Shown piece by piece: positions 15,828-26,220 of a DNA stretch of 41,923 nucleotides (within the stretch, counting starts at the first letter, position 1; the number at the start of each line of letters is the position of its first letter). A model generated the notes under the pieces. The model was not told the DNA's origin. It saw nothing but the letters and a program-made list of their open reading frames with translations, and made no database searches. The stretch is from Labilithrix sp. (lineage in GTDB: Bacteria; Myxococcota_A; Polyangia; Polyangiales; Polyangiaceae), in the NCBI GenBank assembly GCA_019637105.1, contig JAHBWF010000062.1, positions 1 through 41,923 on the forward strand, written 5' to 3'. The position numbers and the translations under genes were made by a program.

Positions 15828-16490
15828 ATGGGCGGCGAGAGCGAGGCCGACCGACCTTCGGGGGCGTGCTCCGCGGGCGAGATGGGCGCGCGACGTTCGC
15901 CGGAGCCGCCCGCGGGGGGCTTCGGGGCTCGAGGCGCGTCGGTCTACGGTTACCTCTTGCCGATCTCGAGGCCCGCGCCGTCCGGGAGGAGGCTCCTCAT
16001 CGCGGCCTTTCTTCTCGTCGGCCTGGGCGCCCTCCTCGTCGTCCTCGCGGCGACCGCGATCGCGAGGTGGCACGCGGCGACGATGACCGTCGAGGCCAAG
16101 AACTCCCTCGGCATGATCGCCAAGGACCTCAGCGGGGCGTACGAGGCCGAAGTCCAGGACCCGACGGACCCTTCGCGCGTTCTCTTTCATCGACTCTGCC
16201 CGTCGTCGCGTCCCGTTCCGGCGAGCACGACGGCGATCGCCGGCAAGGAATATCGGTCGTCACCCGCGGAGTGGCGCGACGATCCCGGCTGGTTCTGCAT
16301 GCGGTTCGAACGAAGCGAACCGCAGCGCTACCAGTACCAGTACACCAACGAGGGGGACTCGTTCGTGGCCGTCGCCCGCGGCGACCTCGACGGCGACGGC
16401 GTCCTCTCCACGTTCGAGTTACGTGGCGACGTGACCGAGGGTCGCGTCGTCATCCGTCCGTGGCTCCAGGAGACCGACCCTTACGAGTAG
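15828..16490 (+). CDS. Membrane-anchored pilin-like protein lacking a prepilin cleavage motif
   Basis: A 220-residue protein. A Gly/Pro/Ser-rich N-terminus (1-50) precedes one membrane helix (about 55-80, LLIAAFLLVGLGALLVV). The next stretch, VEAKNSLGMIAKDLSGAYEAE (as VEAKNSLGMI and KDLSGAYEAE), matches the N-terminal helix of myxobacterial type IV pilins. The C-terminal part keeps pilin hallmarks: LCPSSRPVPAS, a Cys pair (about 125 and 150), QYQYTNEGDSF and the terminal VARGDLDGDGVLSTF loop. The class III signal G|FTLIE is absent, so PilD-type processing and assembly into a fibre are not expected. No pil genes are nearby. It may be a pilin-derived domain fixed in the inner membrane. The adjacent gene is the PEGA kinase, behind a terminator. 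Confidence 0.65.
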   Translation: MGGESEADRPSGACSAGEMGARRSPEPPAGGFGARGASVYGYLLPISRPAPSGRRLLIAAFLLVGLGALLVVLAATAIARWHAATMTVEAKNSLGMIAKDLSGAYEAEVQDPTDPSRVLFHRLCPSSRPVPASTTAIAGKEYRSSPAEWRDDPGWFCMRFERSEPQRYQYQYTNEGDSFVAVARGDLDGDGVLSTFELRGDVTEGRVVIRPWLQETDPYE

Positions 16491-16781: not shown

Positions 16782-18446
16782 ATGTCTGTTCGTGACGGAG
16801 CAGGAGCGGGTCGGGTCGAGCGACGAGGTTCGCGCGATCCGCTCGTGGGGACCGTCATCAACGGCAAGTTCCACGTCGAGCGGGCCATCGCCCGCGGCGG
16901 CATGGGCCGAATCTACTACGGCACGCAGGCGCCGCTGAATCGCCCCGTCGCGCTGAAGATCGTGAAGGCGGACTCGGTCAACGAGGAGGAGTCGCAGTTC
17001 CTGAAGCGGTTCCTCCTCGAGGCGAGCATCCTCGCGAAGCTCCAGCACCCGAACGTCGTCACGCTCTTCGACTACGGGCGCATCGAGGGCGCCTCCGTCG
17101 AGATGTACTTCATCGCGATGGAGTACCTGAACGGCGAGACGCTCACCGAGCGGCTCCGGACGCGCGGCGCGCTCCCCGCGATGGAGGCGGTCGCGATCTT
17201 CCGACAGATCGCGCGCGGCCTCCGCGAGGCGCACGTGCGCGGCATCGTCCATCGGGATCTCAAGCCGTCCAACATCGTGATCGTGCCCGAGGCCGACGGC
17301 GAGATCGTCAAGCTCGTCGACTTCGGCATCGGCAAGGACGAGGGCGGCGGCGAGGACCTCACGCGCGACGGCGTCCTCGTCGGCACGCCGAAGTACATGG
17401 CGCCGGAGCAGTTCGACGGAGCGTCCTCCGCGGCGAGCGACGTCTACGCGCTCGGCATCATCGTCTACCAGCTGCTCACCGGCTCGCTCCCCTTCGCCGG
17501 GAGCACGATGGCCGACTTCATGATCGCGAAGCTGCAGCACACCGCGCCGGCGATGCGCGAGGTGAACCCGATCTGCGACGCCACCGACGGCCTCGAGGCC
17601 CTCGTCTACCGGATGCTCGCGCGCCATCCTCCGGAGCGCCCGACGCTCGACGAGGTCTTCGCCCAGCTCGCGCACTGCGAGGAGGAGATCTTCGGCTCCT
17701 CGGGCGCGCGGCTGGCCCTCTCCGGCCCGCGCAGCTTCCCGATGAGCTCGCGGCCGGTGTCGATCGGGGCGCTGCAGGTCCCGCACACCGTGGTCGCCCC
17801 GCAGCCCCTGCTCCTGACGCCGCGCCCGGGCACGACCCCGCACGCGTCGGGGCCGCCGCTCACGGGGCTCACCCCGAGGCCGATGGCGACGTCGGCGCGC
17901 CCGCCGGGGTCGACCGCGCGCGCGGGCGTGCCCGTCGCCGTGCTCCTCTCGCTCCTCGTCGCGCTCGTCGCGGCGGCCGCCGGCGGCCTCTGGTTCGCGA
18001 AATCGCGGCTGCTCGCCAAGGACGACGGCCCGGCCGAGCCGGCGGCGACCGCGCCCTCCGCCGCGCCGAGCGCCGTCGCGGCGCCGCCCGCCGCGCCGAC
18101 GTCCTTCGTCCTGCACCTCGACTCGACCCCGCCCGGCGCGACCGTCCTCGAGGACGGCAAGGCGCTCGGCGTCACCCCGCTCGACGTCCCGATCGAGCGG
18201 TCGAGCGTGGTGAACGGCCCGCGCACGTTCCTGCTGCAGAAGGACGGCTACACGACGACCGCGTTCGCGCAGGGCGCGTCGGACGTCGACGTCCCGCACA
18301 CCGTGGCGCTTGCACGCGAGACCGCGCGCGCCGTAAAGTCGGGGCCCTCGCACGGGTCGGGCGGCGGAAGGTCCTCGGCGAACGGCGGCGGGAAGGGGCC
18401 CGCCGCGGGCCCCACGGGCGAGTCGGACATTCGGCTGAAGAGATGA
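16782..18446 (+). CDS. Membrane Ser/Thr protein kinase with C-terminal PEGA domain
   Basis: A 554-residue PknB-type kinase with all catalytic residues: Gly loop ARGGMGRIYYG (37-47), Lys59 in VALK, HRDLKPSN (157-164, catalytic Asp159), DFG (180-182) and APE (207-209). A Pro/Thr-rich linker leads to one membrane helix (about 385-407). A periplasmic Ala/Pro stretch and a PEGA domain (about 445-515, DSTPPGATVLEDGKALGVTP) follow. The kinase would thus be cytosolic and the PEGA domain periplasmic. Its stop overlaps the next start (ATGA), coupling it to a receptor that also carries PEGA-like repeats. A shared periplasmic ligand or partner is a reasonable inference. A TACGCT box (16763-16768) is the only promoter-like element seen upstream. 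Confidence 0.93.
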   Translation: MSVRDGAGAGRVERRGSRDPLVGTVINGKFHVERAIARGGMGRIYYGTQAPLNRPVALKIVKADSVNEEESQFLKRFLLEASILAKLQHPNVVTLFDYGRIEGASVEMYFIAMEYLNGETLTERLRTRGALPAMEAVAIFRQIARGLREAHVRGIVHRDLKPSNIVIVPEADGEIVKLVDFGIGKDEGGGEDLTRDGVLVGTPKYMAPEQFDGASSAASDVYALGIIVYQLLTGSLPFAGSTMADFMIAKLQHTAPAMREVNPICDATDGLEALVYRMLARHPPERPTLDEVFAQLAHCEEEIFGSSGARLALSGPRSFPMSSRPVSIGALQVPHTVVAPQPLLLTPRPGTTPHASGPPLTGLTPRPMATSARPPGSTARAGVPVAVLLSLLVALVAAAAGGLWFAKSRLLAKDDGPAEPAATAPSAAPSAVAAPPAAPTSFVLHLDSTPPGATVLEDGKALGVTPLDVPIERSSVVNGPRTFLLQKDGYTTTAFAQGASDVDVPHTVALARETARAVKSGPSHGSGGGRSSANGGGKGPAAGPTGESDIRLKR

Positions 18447-21397
18447 CGCGTACGACCTCGAGGAGCCGCTGGACCGTCGCGCTCCTCGTCGTCGTGGCGC
18501 TTGTCGCGTCGATCGCCGCGCCGACGGTCGCGCGCGCGGACGACGTCGCCGACGAAGCCGATCACCTCTTCACGCTCGGCGCCGAGCACTACCAGTCGAA
18601 GGACTACAAGAGCGCGCTGCAGTACTTCCTCGCGTCGAACCGGCTCGTTCGGAACCGCAACGTGATGTACAACATCGCGCGGACGTACGAGCACCTGTCG
18701 CAGCCTTCGGACGCGTACCGCTACTACCAGCGCGCGCTCGAGGGCGAGACCGACAACGCGGTCAAGCAGCGCATCAAGGAGTCGATGCAGCGCCTCGGCT
18801 CGAGCGTCGCGCTGCTCAAGGTCGAGACCGATCCCCCCGGCGCGACGCTGTACTTGAGCCGGAAGGACCTCGGCGATCGCGGCACCGCGCCCCAGACGAT
18901 CGCGCTCACCCCGGGCTCGTACACGGTGATCGCCGAGCTCGCGGGCTACGACGACGCCACCTCGAAGGCCGTCGACGTCCGCGTCGGACGCGAGACGGCC
19001 ATCACGCTGAAGCTCACGCGCGTCGTCGGCACGCTGCGCGTCGTCGGCGCGAAGGGCGCCTCCGTCCGGCTCGACGCCGACGACGCCCCCGTGCTGTGCG
19101 AGGCGCCCTGCGACGCGCCGGCGCCGCCCGGGCAGCACGTGCTCATCCTGTCGAAGCCCGGCTTCCGCACCACGCGGCAGAACGTCCAGGTCCGCGCCAA
19201 CAAGGTCACCGAGGTGAAGCCGGACATCGAGGCCGAGACCGGCTCGCTCGTCGTCAACGCGGACGAGCGGGACGCGGTCATCGAGATCGACGGCAAGACG
19301 ATGGGCTTCACCCCGTCGGTGCTCACCGTCCCGGTCGGCCCCCACGACGTCCGCGTGACCTTGCGCGGCTTCCGGCCCGTCGAGCGAAAGATCGACGTGA
19401 GCGCGAACGCGCAGACCCAGCTCGATCTCCAGCTCGTCAGCGCCGACGCCGTCGAGGCCGCGTCGCGCGTCTCCGAGCCGATCGAAGACGCGCCGGCGTC
19501 CGTCTCGCTCGTCACGAGCCCGGAGCTCCGCGCGATGCGCTACCCGACCGTGGCCGAGGCGGTGCGCGGCGTCCGCGGCGTCTTCATCTCCGACGACACC
19601 GCCTACAAGACGATCGGCTTCCGCGGCTTCGGCCGCCCCGGAGACTACGGCAACCGTGTCCTCATCCTGATCGACGGGCACCCGGCCAACGACAACTGGC
19701 TCTGGTCTTCGTACACGGGCTACGACCTCCGCGCCGACATCGAGGACGTCGAGCGCATCGAGGTCGTGCGCGGCCCCGGCTCGGTGCTCTACGGCACCGG
19801 CGCGTTCTCCGGCGTCGTCAACCTCATCTCCCACACGCGCGACACGCCGGACGGGCGCGAGGTCGGCGTCTCCGCCGTCGGCGACGGCGTCATGCGCGCG
19901 CGCGCGCGGCTCACGCACCACTGGACACGCGACGCCGGCGTCACGACGTCCGTGGCGGTCGCCAAGGGCGCCGGGCGCGACTTCTTCTTCCGCGAGTACG
20001 TCGCCGACGGTCCTCCGTCCGTCGCCGGGCACTCCCGCGGCCTCGACGGCTTCGGCGTCGGCACGTGGAGCGGGCGCGTCTTCTACAAGGCGCTCTCCGC
20101 TCAGTGGAGCGTCAACCACCACGACAAGGACATGCCCGCCGGGCAGTTCGACACGCTCTACGGAGACGCGCGGACGCACCAGGCCGACACCCGCGCGTTC
20201 CTCGAGGTGAAGCTCGACCCCAAGCTGAGCGAGCAGGTCACGAGCGTCACCCGCGTGCACGCCAACGCGTTCCTCTACCGCGGCGTCTTCGCGCGCTCCC
20301 CCGCCGGCGGCGGCATGGAGCGCAGCACGTACGACGGCGCCTGGGTGGGAGGCGAGCAGCGCCTCATCTACTCGCCCGTCGAGCAGCTCCGGATCACCGG
20401 CGGCGGCGAGTTCCAGTACCACGCGCTCGTCCACCAGCAGGGCTCCGACCAGGTGAACGGGAAGTTCTACGACGATCGCGATCCCTTCACGCTCGCCGCG
20501 GGCTACGCGCTCGCGGACGTCTCGCCGTCCAGGTCCGTCAAGATCACCGGCGGCGCGCGCCTCGACTCGTACTCGTTCGCCGACGCGTCGCTCAACCCGC
20601 GCGTCGCCGCCATCTTCAAGCCGTACGCCGGCGGCAACCTCAAGGTCATGGCCGGCAAGGCCTTCCGCGCGCCGAGCGTCTACGAGCTCTACAACAACGC
20701 CGGCGGCGGCCAGCAGCAGAACACGAGCCTCCGCCCCGAGAACCTCTACTCGGGCGAGGTCGAGTACAGCCACCGCTTCTCGCCGACGGTGATCGCGAGC
20801 GCCACCGGGTACGCGAACTACATCACCGATCTCATCGCGCTCCGCGACCTGCCCGACGCGACGCCGACGACGCCGTCCTACGCGTACCAGAACACCCCGG
20901 CGCCCGTCGGGACGCTCGGCGCGGAGCTCGAGCTCCGCCGCGAGTGGAAGGAGGGCTGGATGCTCGGCGGGTCGTACTCGTTCCAGAAGAGCCGCTACCT
21001 CGCGTCCGACTCGCTCGGCGACTTCATCGCGTTCGAGCAGGCCGCGGGGCTCCGCGAGGTGGCCAACTCGCCGAACCACCTGGCGTCGATCAAGGGCGGC
21101 GTGCCGATCCTCTCGCGCTCGCTCATGCTGATGAGCCGCCTCACCTTCGAGGGGCCGCGGTTCGATCGCAACGACACAGACGGGCCCGGCCAGCCGGCGC
21201 AGCGCGAGACGCCGAGCGCGGTCCTCTGGGACCTCGTGTTCTCGGGGTCCGAGGCCCGCTGGGGGCTCTCGTACGGCGTCGGCGTCTACAACGCGTTCGA
21301 CGCGCGCTGGCGCGTGCCGATCAGCGCCGAGTTCCGGCCGACGACCATGGTGCAGAGCGGGCGTACGCTGCTCGCCTACGCGGCGGTGACGTTCTAG
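18443..21397 (+). CDS. TonB-dependent receptor with N-terminal TPR and three PEGA-like repeats
   Basis: A 984-residue outer-membrane receptor with an unusual periplasmic front. In order: Sec signal (1-32), TPR-like helices (about 40-118, LGAEHYQSKDYKSALQYF), PEGA-like repeats at about 121-193, 195-262 and 266-333, a plug domain (about 345-463), then a 22-strand-type barrel ending in VTF. The plug keeps IGFRGFG, VLILIDG and VERIEVVRGPGSVLYG. PEGA repeats 1 and 3 keep the GA/GxTP core. Repeat 2 is degenerate and holds a CEAPC pair. No TonB box is obvious. TonB/ExbB genes are not in the window, and the substrate is unknown. Translation is coupled to the kinase gene upstream. Confidence 0.88.
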   Translation: MTRTTSRSRWTVALLVVVALVASIAAPTVARADDVADEADHLFTLGAEHYQSKDYKSALQYFLASNRLVRNRNVMYNIARTYEHLSQPSDAYRYYQRALEGETDNAVKQRIKESMQRLGSSVALLKVETDPPGATLYLSRKDLGDRGTAPQTIALTPGSYTVIAELAGYDDATSKAVDVRVGRETAITLKLTRVVGTLRVVGAKGASVRLDADDAPVLCEAPCDAPAPPGQHVLILSKPGFRTTRQNVQVRANKVTEVKPDIEAETGSLVVNADERDAVIEIDGKTMGFTPSVLTVPVGPHDVRVTLRGFRPVERKIDVSANAQTQLDLQLVSADAVEAASRVSEPIEDAPASVSLVTSPELRAMRYPTVAEAVRGVRGVFISDDTAYKTIGFRGFGRPGDYGNRVLILIDGHPANDNWLWSSYTGYDLRADIEDVERIEVVRGPGSVLYGTGAFSGVVNLISHTRDTPDGREVGVSAVGDGVMRARARLTHHWTRDAGVTTSVAVAKGAGRDFFFREYVADGPPSVAGHSRGLDGFGVGTWSGRVFYKALSAQWSVNHHDKDMPAGQFDTLYGDARTHQADTRAFLEVKLDPKLSEQVTSVTRVHANAFLYRGVFARSPAGGGMERSTYDGAWVGGEQRLIYSPVEQLRITGGGEFQYHALVHQQGSDQVNGKFYDDRDPFTLAAGYALADVSPSRSVKITGGARLDSYSFADASLNPRVAAIFKPYAGGNLKVMAGKAFRAPSVYELYNNAGGGQQQNTSLRPENLYSGEVEYSHRFSPTVIASATGYANYITDLIALRDLPDATPTTPSYAYQNTPAPVGTLGAELELRREWKEGWMLGGSYSFQKSRYLASDSLGDFIAFEQAAGLREVANSPNHLASIKGGVPILSRSLMLMSRLTFEGPRFDRNDTDGPGQPAQRETPSAVLWDLVFSGSEARWGLSYGVGVYNAFDARWRVPISAEFRPTTMVQSGRTLLAYAAVTF

Positions 21398-21399
21398 CG

Positions 21400-21849
21400 A
21401 TGCCGCGCGCTCCTCGCCTCCCCGGACGGCGCGCGACGTGGTTCGCGGTGACGGCCGCGCTCGCCGCGGCGGCGGCGTGCGAGTCCGCCGACTCGTACGT
21501 GTACACCGCGCAGCGGTTCGACGCCGCCGCCGCGTGCCTCGAGCCGTACCGGGCGGTCGAGGTCGTCGAGGGCCCCGGCGTCGCCGCGACGTGCCCCGCG
21601 AGCTGCCTGACCGTCGGGGTCGAGGTCTTCGTCACGACGATGTGCCCGCCGCTGCCGACGATCGCCACGGAGCTCGCGCTCGACGACGAGGCGTGCGTGG
21701 CCGCGCGCGGCGCGCTCGGGACGACCTGCGGGGAGGAGCCCGCCGACACCGACGCCGACGCGGAATCGGCGGACGACGGCGCCGCGGCGGACGGCTCGGC
21801 TTCGCCGGACCTCGACGCGAGCGCGACCGACGCCGGCGACGGCGCGTGA
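21400..21849 (+). CDS. Small Cys-containing lipoprotein coupled to the receptor gene
   Basis: A 149-residue protein with no domain I recognise. ATG 21400 lies 2 nt after the receptor stop, so the genes are co-transcribed. The Arg-rich start and Ala-rich core end in a lipobox at Cys27 (AAAAAC followed by ESADS). The mature part has six further cysteines in about 75 residues (including ACLEPYRAV, ATCPASCLTV and TMCPPLP), then an Asp/Ala-rich low-complexity tail. Lipoproteins beside TonB-dependent receptors often bind the substrate at the cell surface or periplasmic face. That role is a guess from position here. Confidence 0.7.
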   Translation: MPRAPRLPGRRATWFAVTAALAAAAACESADSYVYTAQRFDAAAACLEPYRAVEVVEGPGVAATCPASCLTVGVEVFVTTMCPPLPTIATELALDDEACVAARGALGTTCGEEPADTDADAESADDGAAADGSASPDLDASATDAGDGA

Positions 21850-24903: not shown

Positions 24904-26220
24904 TCACTTCAAGCGCGAGAGCTTCCCTTCGATGACGGCCGCGTCGGCGCCGCGGGCCTTCTTCGCGGCCTCGTAGGCGGCGCGGGCGCCCTTCGGGTTG
25001 CCGTCGGCGGCGAGGGCGTCGCCCTGCGCGATCCACGACGGCGCGTGGTCGGGGAAGTCGAGCACAGCGCGCTGGCCGAAGGCCTTGGCGCTCGTGAGCC
25101 GCCCCGCGGCGATGCACGCGTTCGTCGCGTTGACGAGCGGCGCGGGGTTCAGCGGATCGAGGCCGCTCGCCTTCTGGTAGGCCTCGAGCGCGAGGTCGAT
25201 CTCGCCCTTCTTCGCGTAGGCGTCCGCGACGAGGAGCTTCGCCTTGCCCTCGTTCGGCATCAGCTTCAGCGCGGTCTCGCCGGCTTCGATCGCGGCGTCT
25301 GGCTTGCCGTCCGCGAGCGCGACGCGCCCCGAGACGACGTGCGCGAGGACGTCGTTCGGCGCGATCTCGAGGACGGACGCGGCGACGCGCTTCGCGTCGG
25401 GGAGCCGGCTCGCGGCGACGTAGGCCTCGGTGAGCGCGCGGAGCGCGTCGATGAGCGTCGGGCGCTCGGCGACGGCCCTCTCGAACGCGGCGATCGCGTC
25501 GGCCCGGCGCGCGGGATCCGAGGCCAGCGCGCGGCCGAGCTCGAGCTGGGCGATCGGATCGTGCGCGTCGAGCTCGACGGCGCGGCGGAGCGACGGCACG
25601 CCGTCCTTGCCGGTCCGGTGCAGCATCGCGCCGAGGAGCACGTGCCCCTCGGCGCGGCCCGGCGCGAGCCGGATCGCCTCGCGGTAGGCGGCCTCCGCCT
25701 CGGCGTCCTTCGAGTCGAGCTCGCGCGAGCGCCCCTCGGCCAGCTTGGCGTGGAAGAGGACGTCGGCGCTCGCGTTCGGGATCTTGCCGAGCTCCGCGAG
25801 CTCGGCGAGCGCCTCGGTCCCGCGCCGCCAGAGCAGGTGCGCCTCCGCCGCGCAGACGCGGCTCGCCGCGGCGCCGTCCGCGACCTTCGCGATCGACTTG
25901 CACGCGGACATCGCGGGGGCGAAGTCGCGCTTCGCGATGTGCGTCCGGGCGATCTCCCAGCGGACCGCGGCGGCGGCGTCGCCCTTCGCGAAGACCTGCC
26001 CGCGCTTCAGCTCGGCGAGCGCCTCGGCCTCGCGCCCCGCGCGCCGGAGCGCGCGGCCGTACGCGATCGCCGCGTCCGCGCTCGTCGGCGCCTGGCGCGC
26101 GCGGCCCTTCGCGTCGGCCAGCGCCGACTGCTGCGCGGACGAATCCCGGGTGGTGAAAACGATCCCCCCCAACGCGGAGATCCCGAGCAGGGCAGTCGCC
26201 CAGAACCTTGAAGTCCTCAT
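24904..26220 (-). CDS. Exported TPR-repeat protein
   Basis: A 438-residue protein built almost wholly of tetratricopeptide repeats after an N-terminal signal/anchor (RFWATALLGISALGGIVF). ATG 26220 is chosen because a GGAGGGG ribosome-binding site precedes it; the frame extends to 26271 but without one. About ten helical hairpins can be traced, with good TPR signatures such as AEAAYREAIRLAPGRAEGHVLLG, AIAAFERAVAERP and LALEAYQKASGLDPLNPAPL (given here as separate short motifs). Two cysteines in SACKSIAKVADG and SRVCAAEAHLL may pair. It probably acts as a periplasmic scaffold. It is followed by meaB on the same strand after 86 bp, but no functional link is evident. Confidence 0.8.
   Translation of the reverse strand: MRTSRFWATALLGISALGGIVFTTRDSSAQQSALADAKGRARQAPTSADAAIAYGRALRRAGREAEALAELKRGQVFAKGDAAAAVRWEIARTHIAKRDFAPAMSACKSIAKVADGAAASRVCAAEAHLLWRRGTEALAELAELGKIPNASADVLFHAKLAEGRSRELDSKDAEAEAAYREAIRLAPGRAEGHVLLGAMLHRTGKDGVPSLRRAVELDAHDPIAQLELGRALASDPARRADAIAAFERAVAERPTLIDALRALTEAYVAASRLPDAKRVAASVLEIAPNDVLAHVVSGRVALADGKPDAAIEAGETALKLMPNEGKAKLLVADAYAKKGEIDLALEAYQKASGLDPLNPAPLVNATNACIAAGRLTSAKAFGQRAVLDFPDHAPSWIAQGDALAADGNPKGARAAYEAAKKARGADAAVIEGKLSRLK

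Follow-up and report, generated by a model that had tools for sequence, protein, structure and literature searches.

A transmembrane Ser/Thr kinase and a TonB-dependent-type receptor form a conserved gene pair in Myxococcota and may be coupled through the kinase C-terminal tail

How could a receptor in the outer membrane of a bacterium be coupled to a kinase in the cytosol? This question is raised by three adjacent genes on a contig of Labilithrix sp. (JAHBWF010000062.1, assembly GCA_019637105.1), the whole of which, 41,923 nucleotides (nt), is referred to here as the window. Three open reading frames (ORFs) were verified on its + strand, to which all window coordinates below refer. The first (16782-18446) encodes a transmembrane Ser/Thr kinase of 554 residues, the second (18443-21397) a TonB-dependent-type receptor of 984 residues, and the third (21400-21849) a Cys-rich lipoprotein-like protein of 149 residues. 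The kinase stop and the receptor start overlap in the sequence ATGA (18443-18446), and the lipoprotein ORF begins 2 nt past the receptor stop, which bears out the layout given in a first-pass annotation of this DNA. According to that annotation the three genes constitute one coupled unit, and the PEGA-type domains of the kinase and the receptor, both directed to the periplasm, suggest a trans-envelope pathway that reports receptor occupancy to the kinase. The analysis presented here points to a coupling element other than PEGA. We consider it likely that the receptor is a TonB-dependent transducer which docks the Ser/Thr kinase by the C-terminal tail of the latter, and that the two form a trans-envelope receptor-kinase pair.

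Architecture and conservation of the kinase-receptor gene pair

The identification of the kinase is based on Pfam, NCBIfam, an AlphaFold2 (AF2) model and invariant catalytic residues. The protein consists of a kinase domain (about residues 23-300; Pfam Pkinase, E 4e-50), a disordered linker, a transmembrane helix (residues 384-410), a PEGA domain (residues 441-509) and a Pro/Ala/Gly-rich tail. The AF2 model contains the kinase domain, a single transmembrane helix and a confidently folded PEGA (predicted local distance difference test score, pLDDT, >90). The predicted transmembrane helix (17931-18011) agrees with the hydropathy of related kinases, all 107 of which have a 19-residue stretch with a mean hydropathy of at least 1.64 past the kinase domain. 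The PEGA domain (18102-18308), predicted to be periplasmic, scored 21.4 bits and thus barely exceeded the Pfam cut-off of 20.8 bits; a search with the C-terminal half of the kinase alone gave 23.1 bits. Residues K59, E80, H157-R158-D159, N164 and D180-F181-G182 are invariant among 65 aligned kinases; the catalytic Lys, HRD and DFG motifs as well as the transmembrane helix of a PknB-type membrane kinase are present.

The receptor was identified by Pfam, AF2 and Foldseek, and is built, in this order, from a signal peptide, a TPR domain, three PEGA domains, a TonB-box-like segment, a plug and a barrel. Pfam gave 113.2 bits for PEGA over three stretches, E 7.7e-21 for Plug and E 9.1e-24 for the TonB barrel, and TPR_1 scored 27.0 bits, slightly below its cut-off of 27.8; among the NCBIfam matches listed (25 families), none reached the cut-off. 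AF2 folds the TPR, PEGA, plug and barrel parts with a mean pLDDT of 91.2. The N-terminal TPR domain (residues 35-119; 18545-18799), for which designed TPR proteins are among the PDB sequence matches, is modelled as helices 35-51, 55-68, 72-84 and 88-99 followed by a cap (105-119). The PEGA domains are located at 18815-19021, 19052-19228 and 19241-19441. The TonB-box-like segment AVEAASR (19448-19468) lies directly before the Plug domain (19481-19816); in an alignment of 128 receptors its family consensus is EVxAASR, which we take to be degenerate in comparison with usual TonB boxes. In a genome-wide PEGA search all four PEGA places, one in the kinase and three in the receptor, exceeded the Pfam curated cut-off. 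This profile search shows that the periplasmic domain of the kinase and the three receptor repeats, the latter described earlier as PEGA-like, are PEGA by Pfam, and the models support, as a prediction, the earlier view that both proteins reach the periplasm.

Relatives of the receptor are widespread. At E 1e-30, 34 of the 59 close genomes contain one; at E<=1e-60, the same holds for 84 of the 184 genomes searched in the order and for 56 of the 282 sampled from the phylum. Most of these matches are near full length. When 8000 candidate database proteins were scored, 1895 had a match at E 1e-20. Gene neighbourhoods were analysed in 134 loci, consisting of 40 from the search of close genomes, 35 from the 37 matching genomes outside the order, and 59 more from the search of the order. 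Matches at contig starts and partial matches were mostly omitted, so that this sample is tilted towards informative loci. A kinase was scored as upstream when the kinase hidden Markov model recognised an ORF on the same strand that ended under 900 nt ahead of the point where the receptor alignment begins. By this definition a kinase ORF lies directly upstream in 34 of the 40 close-genome loci and in 27 of the 35 loci that represent other families and classes; with 46 of the 59 remaining ones, the total is 107 of 134. The kinase-receptor gaps are mainly -4 to +30 nt. Nine of the 27 misses have less than 1100 nt of contig upstream; setting these aside gives 107 of 125. Scored among the misses are locus L150, which aligns only from the plug onward (query residue 336) and is probably no family member, and locus L147, for which the script picked the wrong ORF; here the end of a kinase is found some 2 kb ahead of two receptors arranged in tandem. 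On a quick, midpoint-rooted tree the kinase-less receptors are scattered and nested, a distribution that reads as loss of the kinase. Thus, homologues of the two genes are regularly adjacent, and kinase and receptor form a unit conserved across the phylum.

The first 40 Plug matches that are not members of this family served as a control. With the same script, a same-strand kinase ending at most 4 kb upstream of the plug was found for 13 of these 40 receptors, versus 34 of 40 PEGA receptors. This control is not clean: nine of the 13 kinase-adjacent control receptors bear a TPR, as read by eye from their N-termini, and expose a second kinase-receptor family, which is described below. Six other TPR-bearing control receptors (L075, L079, L096, L098, L101 and L109) have no kinase.

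One member of the receptor family has an aberrant structure. In locus L064 (G006:C15, 7746-9653) the receptor TPR joins directly to the end of the plug, and PEGA as well as most of the plug are missing, which may reflect a deletion or an assembly fault.

The kinase C-terminal tail and the receptor TPR groove

When the C-terminal halves of the 107 upstream kinases and the window kinase were aligned, little was found to be kept except the PEGA signature and the extreme C-terminus. The former was detected by Pfam in 59 of the 108 halves and not in the other 49. The latter is far more constant. In the window kinase it is the hexapeptide DIRLKR (residues 549-554; 18426-18443), the proposed docking peptide, and the consensus of the 107 upstream kinases is D-I-R-x-x-R-COOH, predicted to be periplasmic. 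Counting from the C-terminus, 106 of 107 kinases have Arg at position -1; at position -5, 106 have Ile or Leu and the remaining one has Phe; the combined pattern (Ile, Leu or Phe at -5 plus Arg at -1) is present in 106 of 107. An acidic residue (Asp or Glu) occupies position -6 in 82 of the 107, Arg or Lys occupies position -4 in 85, and 69 fit the strict pattern [DEG][ILFV][RK]xx[RH]. The terminal Arg might have been a by-product of the ATGA overlap; this was rejected since it is also present in 70 of 70 kinase genes for which no overlap with the receptor gene was scored.

The loci contain 27 other kinase ORFs. Of the 22 with readable ends, eight fit a loose pattern (hydrophobic residue at -5, Arg at -1; read by eye): the tandem second kinases of L038, L046 and L047, the opposite-strand kinases of L062, L183 and L186, the downstream kinase of L199, and one in L048. 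In the three tandem arrangements both kinases ahead of the single receptor carry a DIRxxR-type tail. Loci L062, L183 and L186 have no upstream kinase; no more than about 2 kb away, however, the opposite strand encodes a kinase of this tail type, which ends in DIRTKR or GIRTKR; two of these three receptors are near-identical relatives. In the window's genome, the best 30 of 149 kinases gave 19 readable ends, of which one fits the strict pattern (the window kinase itself) and one more the loose one. A single DNA pattern for the tail motif had three matches in this genome, one being a kinase.

Co-variation between tail and receptor was analysed with 104 pairs, that is the window pair and 103 of the 107; L059, L064, L069 and L151 were left out because their receptors are shorter than 850 residues. 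Mutual information (MI) and the pair-ranking and null tests were based on the 87 pairs with less than 85% receptor identity. The null comparisons are partly random samples of the pair space, and pairs with low variation were unscored. MI with average product correction (APC) was replaced as sole evidence by counts over independent phylogenetic pairs, since kinase-domain x plug/barrel pairs scored equally high; the tree used to choose these pairs was likewise a quick one with a midpoint root, and it was built without the TPR.

When the last eight kinase residues were compared with all receptor columns, the highest MI values were obtained for -6 with R80 and -3 with Q51, both of which are located in the TPR, a domain that accounts for 60 of the 722 variable columns. 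The association of -6 with residue 80 follows charge: an acidic -6 is accompanied by a basic residue 80 in 77 of 79 pairs, and a non-acidic -6 by a non-basic residue 80 in 16 of 25; a naturally swapped pair of this kind is that of L068, with Arg at -6 and Leu at residue 80. Among 13 independent pairs differing at -6, a mean of 7.5 were concordant, 0.3 discordant and 5.2 without a difference at residue 80 (median p 0.016, range 0.008-0.07), and the reverse test, from residue 80 to -6, gave 6.9 concordant and 0.3 discordant in 10 pairs (median p 0.016, range 0.016-0.125). For -6, residue 80 scored highest of 759 receptor columns, and this combination was the top of all 4626 tail x receptor pairs, followed by -7 with H84. 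Conversely, when 398 kinase columns were compared with residue 80, -6 again came first (net score 6.6), with transmembrane residue 400 close behind (6.0).

The other tail positions show the same charge logic. A basic -3 (Arg, Lys or His) occurs with an acidic residue 51 in four of four cases, the best of 340 columns, and residue 51 is acidic in only two of the 100 others; Glu at -3 occurs with K51 in three of four cases, the three being from one clade. An acidic -3 is found with R47 in six of seven cases, from two clades. Residue 73 is basic in none of 83 pairs with Arg or Lys at -4, and in 10 of the 21 with other residues at this position. When 557 columns were ranked by charge correlation, residue 80 came first for -6, residue 73 for -4 and residue 47 for -3. 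The top five of the 48 usable tail x TPR-groove pairs were -6/80, -7/84, -3/51, -4/73 and -3/47, and a net score of at least 6.5 was reached by two of these 48, versus none of 2544 tail x barrel pairs that served as null.

The receptor residues concerned lie within 18581-18694, a stretch that contains the proposed docking residues A47, Q51, N73, N77, R80 and H84; N77 is too invariant to be scored. With the TPR register assigned from the sequence and the AF2 helices, residues 47 and 51 of the first TPR occupy positions 9 and 13, and residues 73, 77, 80 and 84 of the second TPR occupy positions 2, 6, 9 and 13. The TPR domains of HOP bind peptides via positions 2, 5, 6, 9, 12 and 13, and all five co-varying residues (47, 51, 73, 80 and 84) fall on ligand-contact positions as given in PMC1261162. 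Taken together, the co-varying positions would place the tail antiparallel to helix A2. The co-variation supports a putative contact between the kinase tail and the ligand-binding positions of the TPR. Its strength lies in the overall pattern, that of charges, positions in the groove, register and mutual best hits, and not in any single p value.

Several observations weigh against such a contact or its generality. The barrel, with 415 columns, contributes 28 of the top 50 tail MI pairs, and the best charge partner of -2 is residue 470, which also lies in the barrel. A basic residue 80 is retained in 9 of the 25 receptors whose kinase has a non-acidic -6, and the -3/51 swap by itself amounts to two independent pairs (p 0.5). 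Net scores of at least 6.5 were also obtained where contact is not expected, namely for one of 3786 kinase-domain x TPR pairs and three of 6062 kinase-PEGA x barrel pairs, two of the latter at >=7.0. In the whole kinase x receptor matrix, raw MI-APC ranks -6 with R80 third of 277,248, behind two kinase-domain x plug/barrel pairs for which contact is impossible, reflecting large phylogenetic noise; under the independent-pairs test the net scores of these two drop to 1.6 and 1.0, while that of another impossible pair stays at 4.9. The tail is disordered in the AF2 model of the kinase, and 18 of the 125 receptors with room for it have no same-strand kinase directly upstream.

Our preferred reading, a kinase docked by its tail, can be summarized as follows. 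The receptor would reside in the outer membrane, with its periplasmic arm of TPR and three PEGA domains preceding the TonB-box-like segment and the plug. The kinase would be anchored in the inner membrane with its kinase domain in the cytosol, while PEGA and the flexible Pro/Ala-rich tail would extend into the periplasm. There, the tail would dock with its final six to seven residues (DIRLKR-COOH) in the concave TPR groove along helix A2, placing -7 by H84, -6 by R80, -4 by N73, and -3 by A47 and Q51. Binding of a presumed ligand, or a TonB-driven shift of the plug and the N-terminal arm, may alter tail tension, tail release or kinase clustering, and hence the phosphorylation of putative targets. 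Signalling would thus run from the receptor inwards, and it is by this route, we infer, that receptor occupancy could be reported to the kinase.

Alternative explanations and relation to known systems

Of the other explanations, the one that survives best accepts the tail-TPR contact as real and regards it as a constitutive tether, which merely anchors or clusters the kinase under the receptor, or joins the two membranes, and does not report ligand binding. The disordered tail and the multi-PEGA arm do resemble spacers, and a regulatory role of the contact is a hypothesis. Yet the catalytic motifs, invariant in all 65 aligned kinases, and the retained TonB-box-like segment and plug suggest an active transducer, and we regard a mere tether as unlikely.

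A second alternative, which takes up the stress laid on PEGA in the first-pass annotation, is that the kinase PEGA binds the receptor PEGA repeats and passes the signal on. Both partners carry PEGA, the kinase PEGA is well folded in the AF2 model in addition to being detected in 59 of 108 kinases, and two kinase-PEGA x receptor-PEGA1 pairs reached a net score of 7.0. The barrel control, however, also has two pairs at that level or above, and scores of at least 5 are equally frequent for kinase PEGA with TPR/PEGA (23 of 4137) and for kinase PEGA with the barrel (36 of 6062, sampled). Moreover, the tail pattern is present in 106 of 107 kinases, whereas PEGA went undetected in 49 of 108. With no excess over the barrel, PEGA-PEGA contact was rejected as the coupling element; it probably does not couple the pair, the signal residing instead in tail x TPR, and we consider it improbable.

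We give as little credence to the idea that the two genes are only co-expressed and that the tail is a tag for a periplasmic protease or an export factor and no ligand of the receptor. Protease and sorting tags at C-termini exist, neighbouring genes often share expression without contact of their products, and receptors without an adjacent kinase retain N77 (13 of 13) and R80 (12 of 13). However, the tail co-varies with the groove in the TPR of the adjacent receptor, and the kinases next to the second receptor type end differently, eight of nine in PY; a general tag would not be expected to follow the receptor type. Finally, chance proximity in a kinase-rich genome (151 Pkinase matches in 8.45 Mb) can safely be dismissed, as chance alone is estimated to place a kinase on the same strand directly ahead of a gene in about 1% of cases, versus 107 of 134 loci over many families of the phylum in which other neighbours are mostly not kept.

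These other neighbours include the lipoprotein-like protein (21400-21849), which has a lipobox-like AAAC and seven Cys and gave no Pfam or NCBIfam match. Relatives were detected by tblastn in 8 of 40 loci, and any lipoprotein-like ORF is present just 3' of the receptor in 18 of 123 loci. It was therefore rejected as a core component, and its inclusion in the coupled unit is not upheld; we regard it as accessory in close relatives. For the endonuclease III gene and the TPR gene at 24904, relatives were found in four of the 40 loci each, for the PilZ gene in two, and for the LysR and efflux genes in none. By comparison, a kinase match is present within 8 kb in 37 of the 40 loci, versus 0-8 for the other neighbours tested. 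Just 5' of the kinase gene, a small ORF (15978-16490) encodes a protein with a hydrophobic N-terminal helix, which has no Pfam match and no relative in the 40 loci.

The FecA-FecR-FecI system, in which a TonB-dependent transducer mediates cell-surface signalling, is the closest point of comparison for the proposed docking. As in the pair described here, FecA-type receptors have an extra periplasmic N-terminal domain, and their gene adjoins that of an inner-membrane protein whose periplasmic C-terminal part the receptor is thought to contact. The plug and TonB-type barrel of such a transducer are likewise present. The best Foldseek matches of the receptor are BtuB (1nqg, E 8.7e-30) and Cir (9nn6, E 1.2e-29); the plug and barrel fold is common to these and related TonB-dependent transporters, and the receptor differs from them by its additional TPR-PEGA extension of about 310 residues. 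It differs from the FecA type in that a TPR-PEGA arm takes the place of STN, no STN being detected at its N-terminus by Pfam at E<=0.01, where TPR, PEGA and CarboxypepD_reg-like matches were obtained instead. Moreover, a Ser/Thr kinase takes the place of the anti-sigma and sigma factors, and contact would be made via the extreme C-terminal peptide. The reported absence of FecR and FecI holds for the nine window proteins scanned by Pfam, the rest of the window not having been scanned. No description of such a kinase-receptor system was found in the open-access literature, consistent with the earlier statement that no described system of this composition is known.

The best PDB matches of the kinase are PknA (7.5e-46) and PknB (2.2e-40), with which it shares a Hanks-type kinase domain, one transmembrane helix and an extracytoplasmic domain. 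The latter is PASTA in the PknB/PknA family; here it is PEGA followed by a conserved C-terminal tail, and the gene partner encodes a predicted outer-membrane receptor. In agreement with this, the kinase scored 245.5 bits against the Stk1/PASTA equivalog NF033483, the cut-off of which is 450.

Recognition of C-terminal peptides by TPR domains is known from HOP with Hsp70/Hsp90 and from PEX5 with PTS1. In both cases the ligand is a short peptide at the extreme C-terminus of the partner, as is the kinase tail, and a further likeness is the Asn that the receptor has at position 6 in its second TPR. The carboxylate clamp of the HOP type uses Lys and Asn at positions 5 and 9 of the first TPR; the receptor has F43 and A47 there and lacks this clamp. 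Other differences are the basic-ended DIRxxR peptide and the location of the TPR on an outer-membrane receptor, and the contact proposed here is deduced from co-variation. Positions 2, 9 and 13, through which HOP binds according to PMC1261162, are those that co-vary here. Since TPR-PEGA and a PknB-like kinase take the place of STN, FecR and FecI, and the clamp residues are lacking, we file the pair as a variant of outer-membrane transducer signalling that belongs neither to the FecA nor to the PASTA-kinase family.

A second receptor type and a possible tail code

The second kinase-receptor family rests on nine loci from the control set (L080, L084, L089, L090, L091, L095, L100, L106 and L110). 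Its TonB receptors combine a TPR with a linker, and their TonB box is more clearly recognisable (for example EDVYEETVVTASR); the C-terminal parts of its kinases look PEGA-like by eye. Eight of the nine kinases end in PY, often DPY (for example YKTDPY, YKGDPY and YKAEPY), and that of L110 in NPYGD. In L095, L100 and L106 two receptors of this second type are arranged in tandem.

In the window's genome, home-made profiles revealed kinase genes directly before or overlapping genes for TPR-PEGA or PEGA proteins without a barrel. These barrel-less pairs are located at L245 2329-5048, L246 3795-6379, L249 1250-4015 and L254 3491-6572, and the kinase tails found there are RPPF, NAPF, PILR and TKIKN. 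The same genome encodes a kinase with the tail GFKGLPY (L244, G000:C1:72969). At a distance of about 77 kb, the contig that carries it also encodes a TPR-bearing TonB receptor that has no kinase of its own (L262, G000:C1:150547); the two may possibly constitute an unlinked pair. Another kinase type was observed in L077, L086, L087 and L094. Its ORFs, of 918-975 residues, resemble one another at the C-terminus, which contains Cys and ends in VP or VPK, and they lie within 180-1740 nt upstream of the plug-encoding part of genes for TonB receptors that have no TPR extension.

The PY tails of the second family, together with the differing tails beside barrel-less PEGA proteins, lead us to propose, tentatively and with somewhat less than even confidence, a general periplasmic tail code in Myxococcota, by which the short C-terminal peptides of membrane Ser/Thr kinases would dock in TPRs of partner envelope proteins and the type of peptide would match the type of partner. 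DIRxxR tails would then specify TPR-PEGA TonB receptors, PY tails (YKxDPY and variants) TPR-linker TonB receptors, and further tails, for example RPPF, NAPF and TKIKN, barrel-less TPR-PEGA proteins. Such a code, if true, would represent modular receptor-kinase signalling spanning two membranes.

To our knowledge, the inputs of most myxobacterial Ser/Thr kinases, of which the genome searched here has about 150, are unknown. The window kinase gains a predicted outer-membrane receptor upstream of it in the pathway and a predicted six-residue contact with named residues. If the docking proposed here is true, TonB-type receptors would signal via kinases too and not solely via anti-sigma factors, and the C-terminal peptide would provide a handle to match orphan kinases with receptors across the phylum. 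The pair would then represent a new outside-in signalling route across the bacterial envelope.

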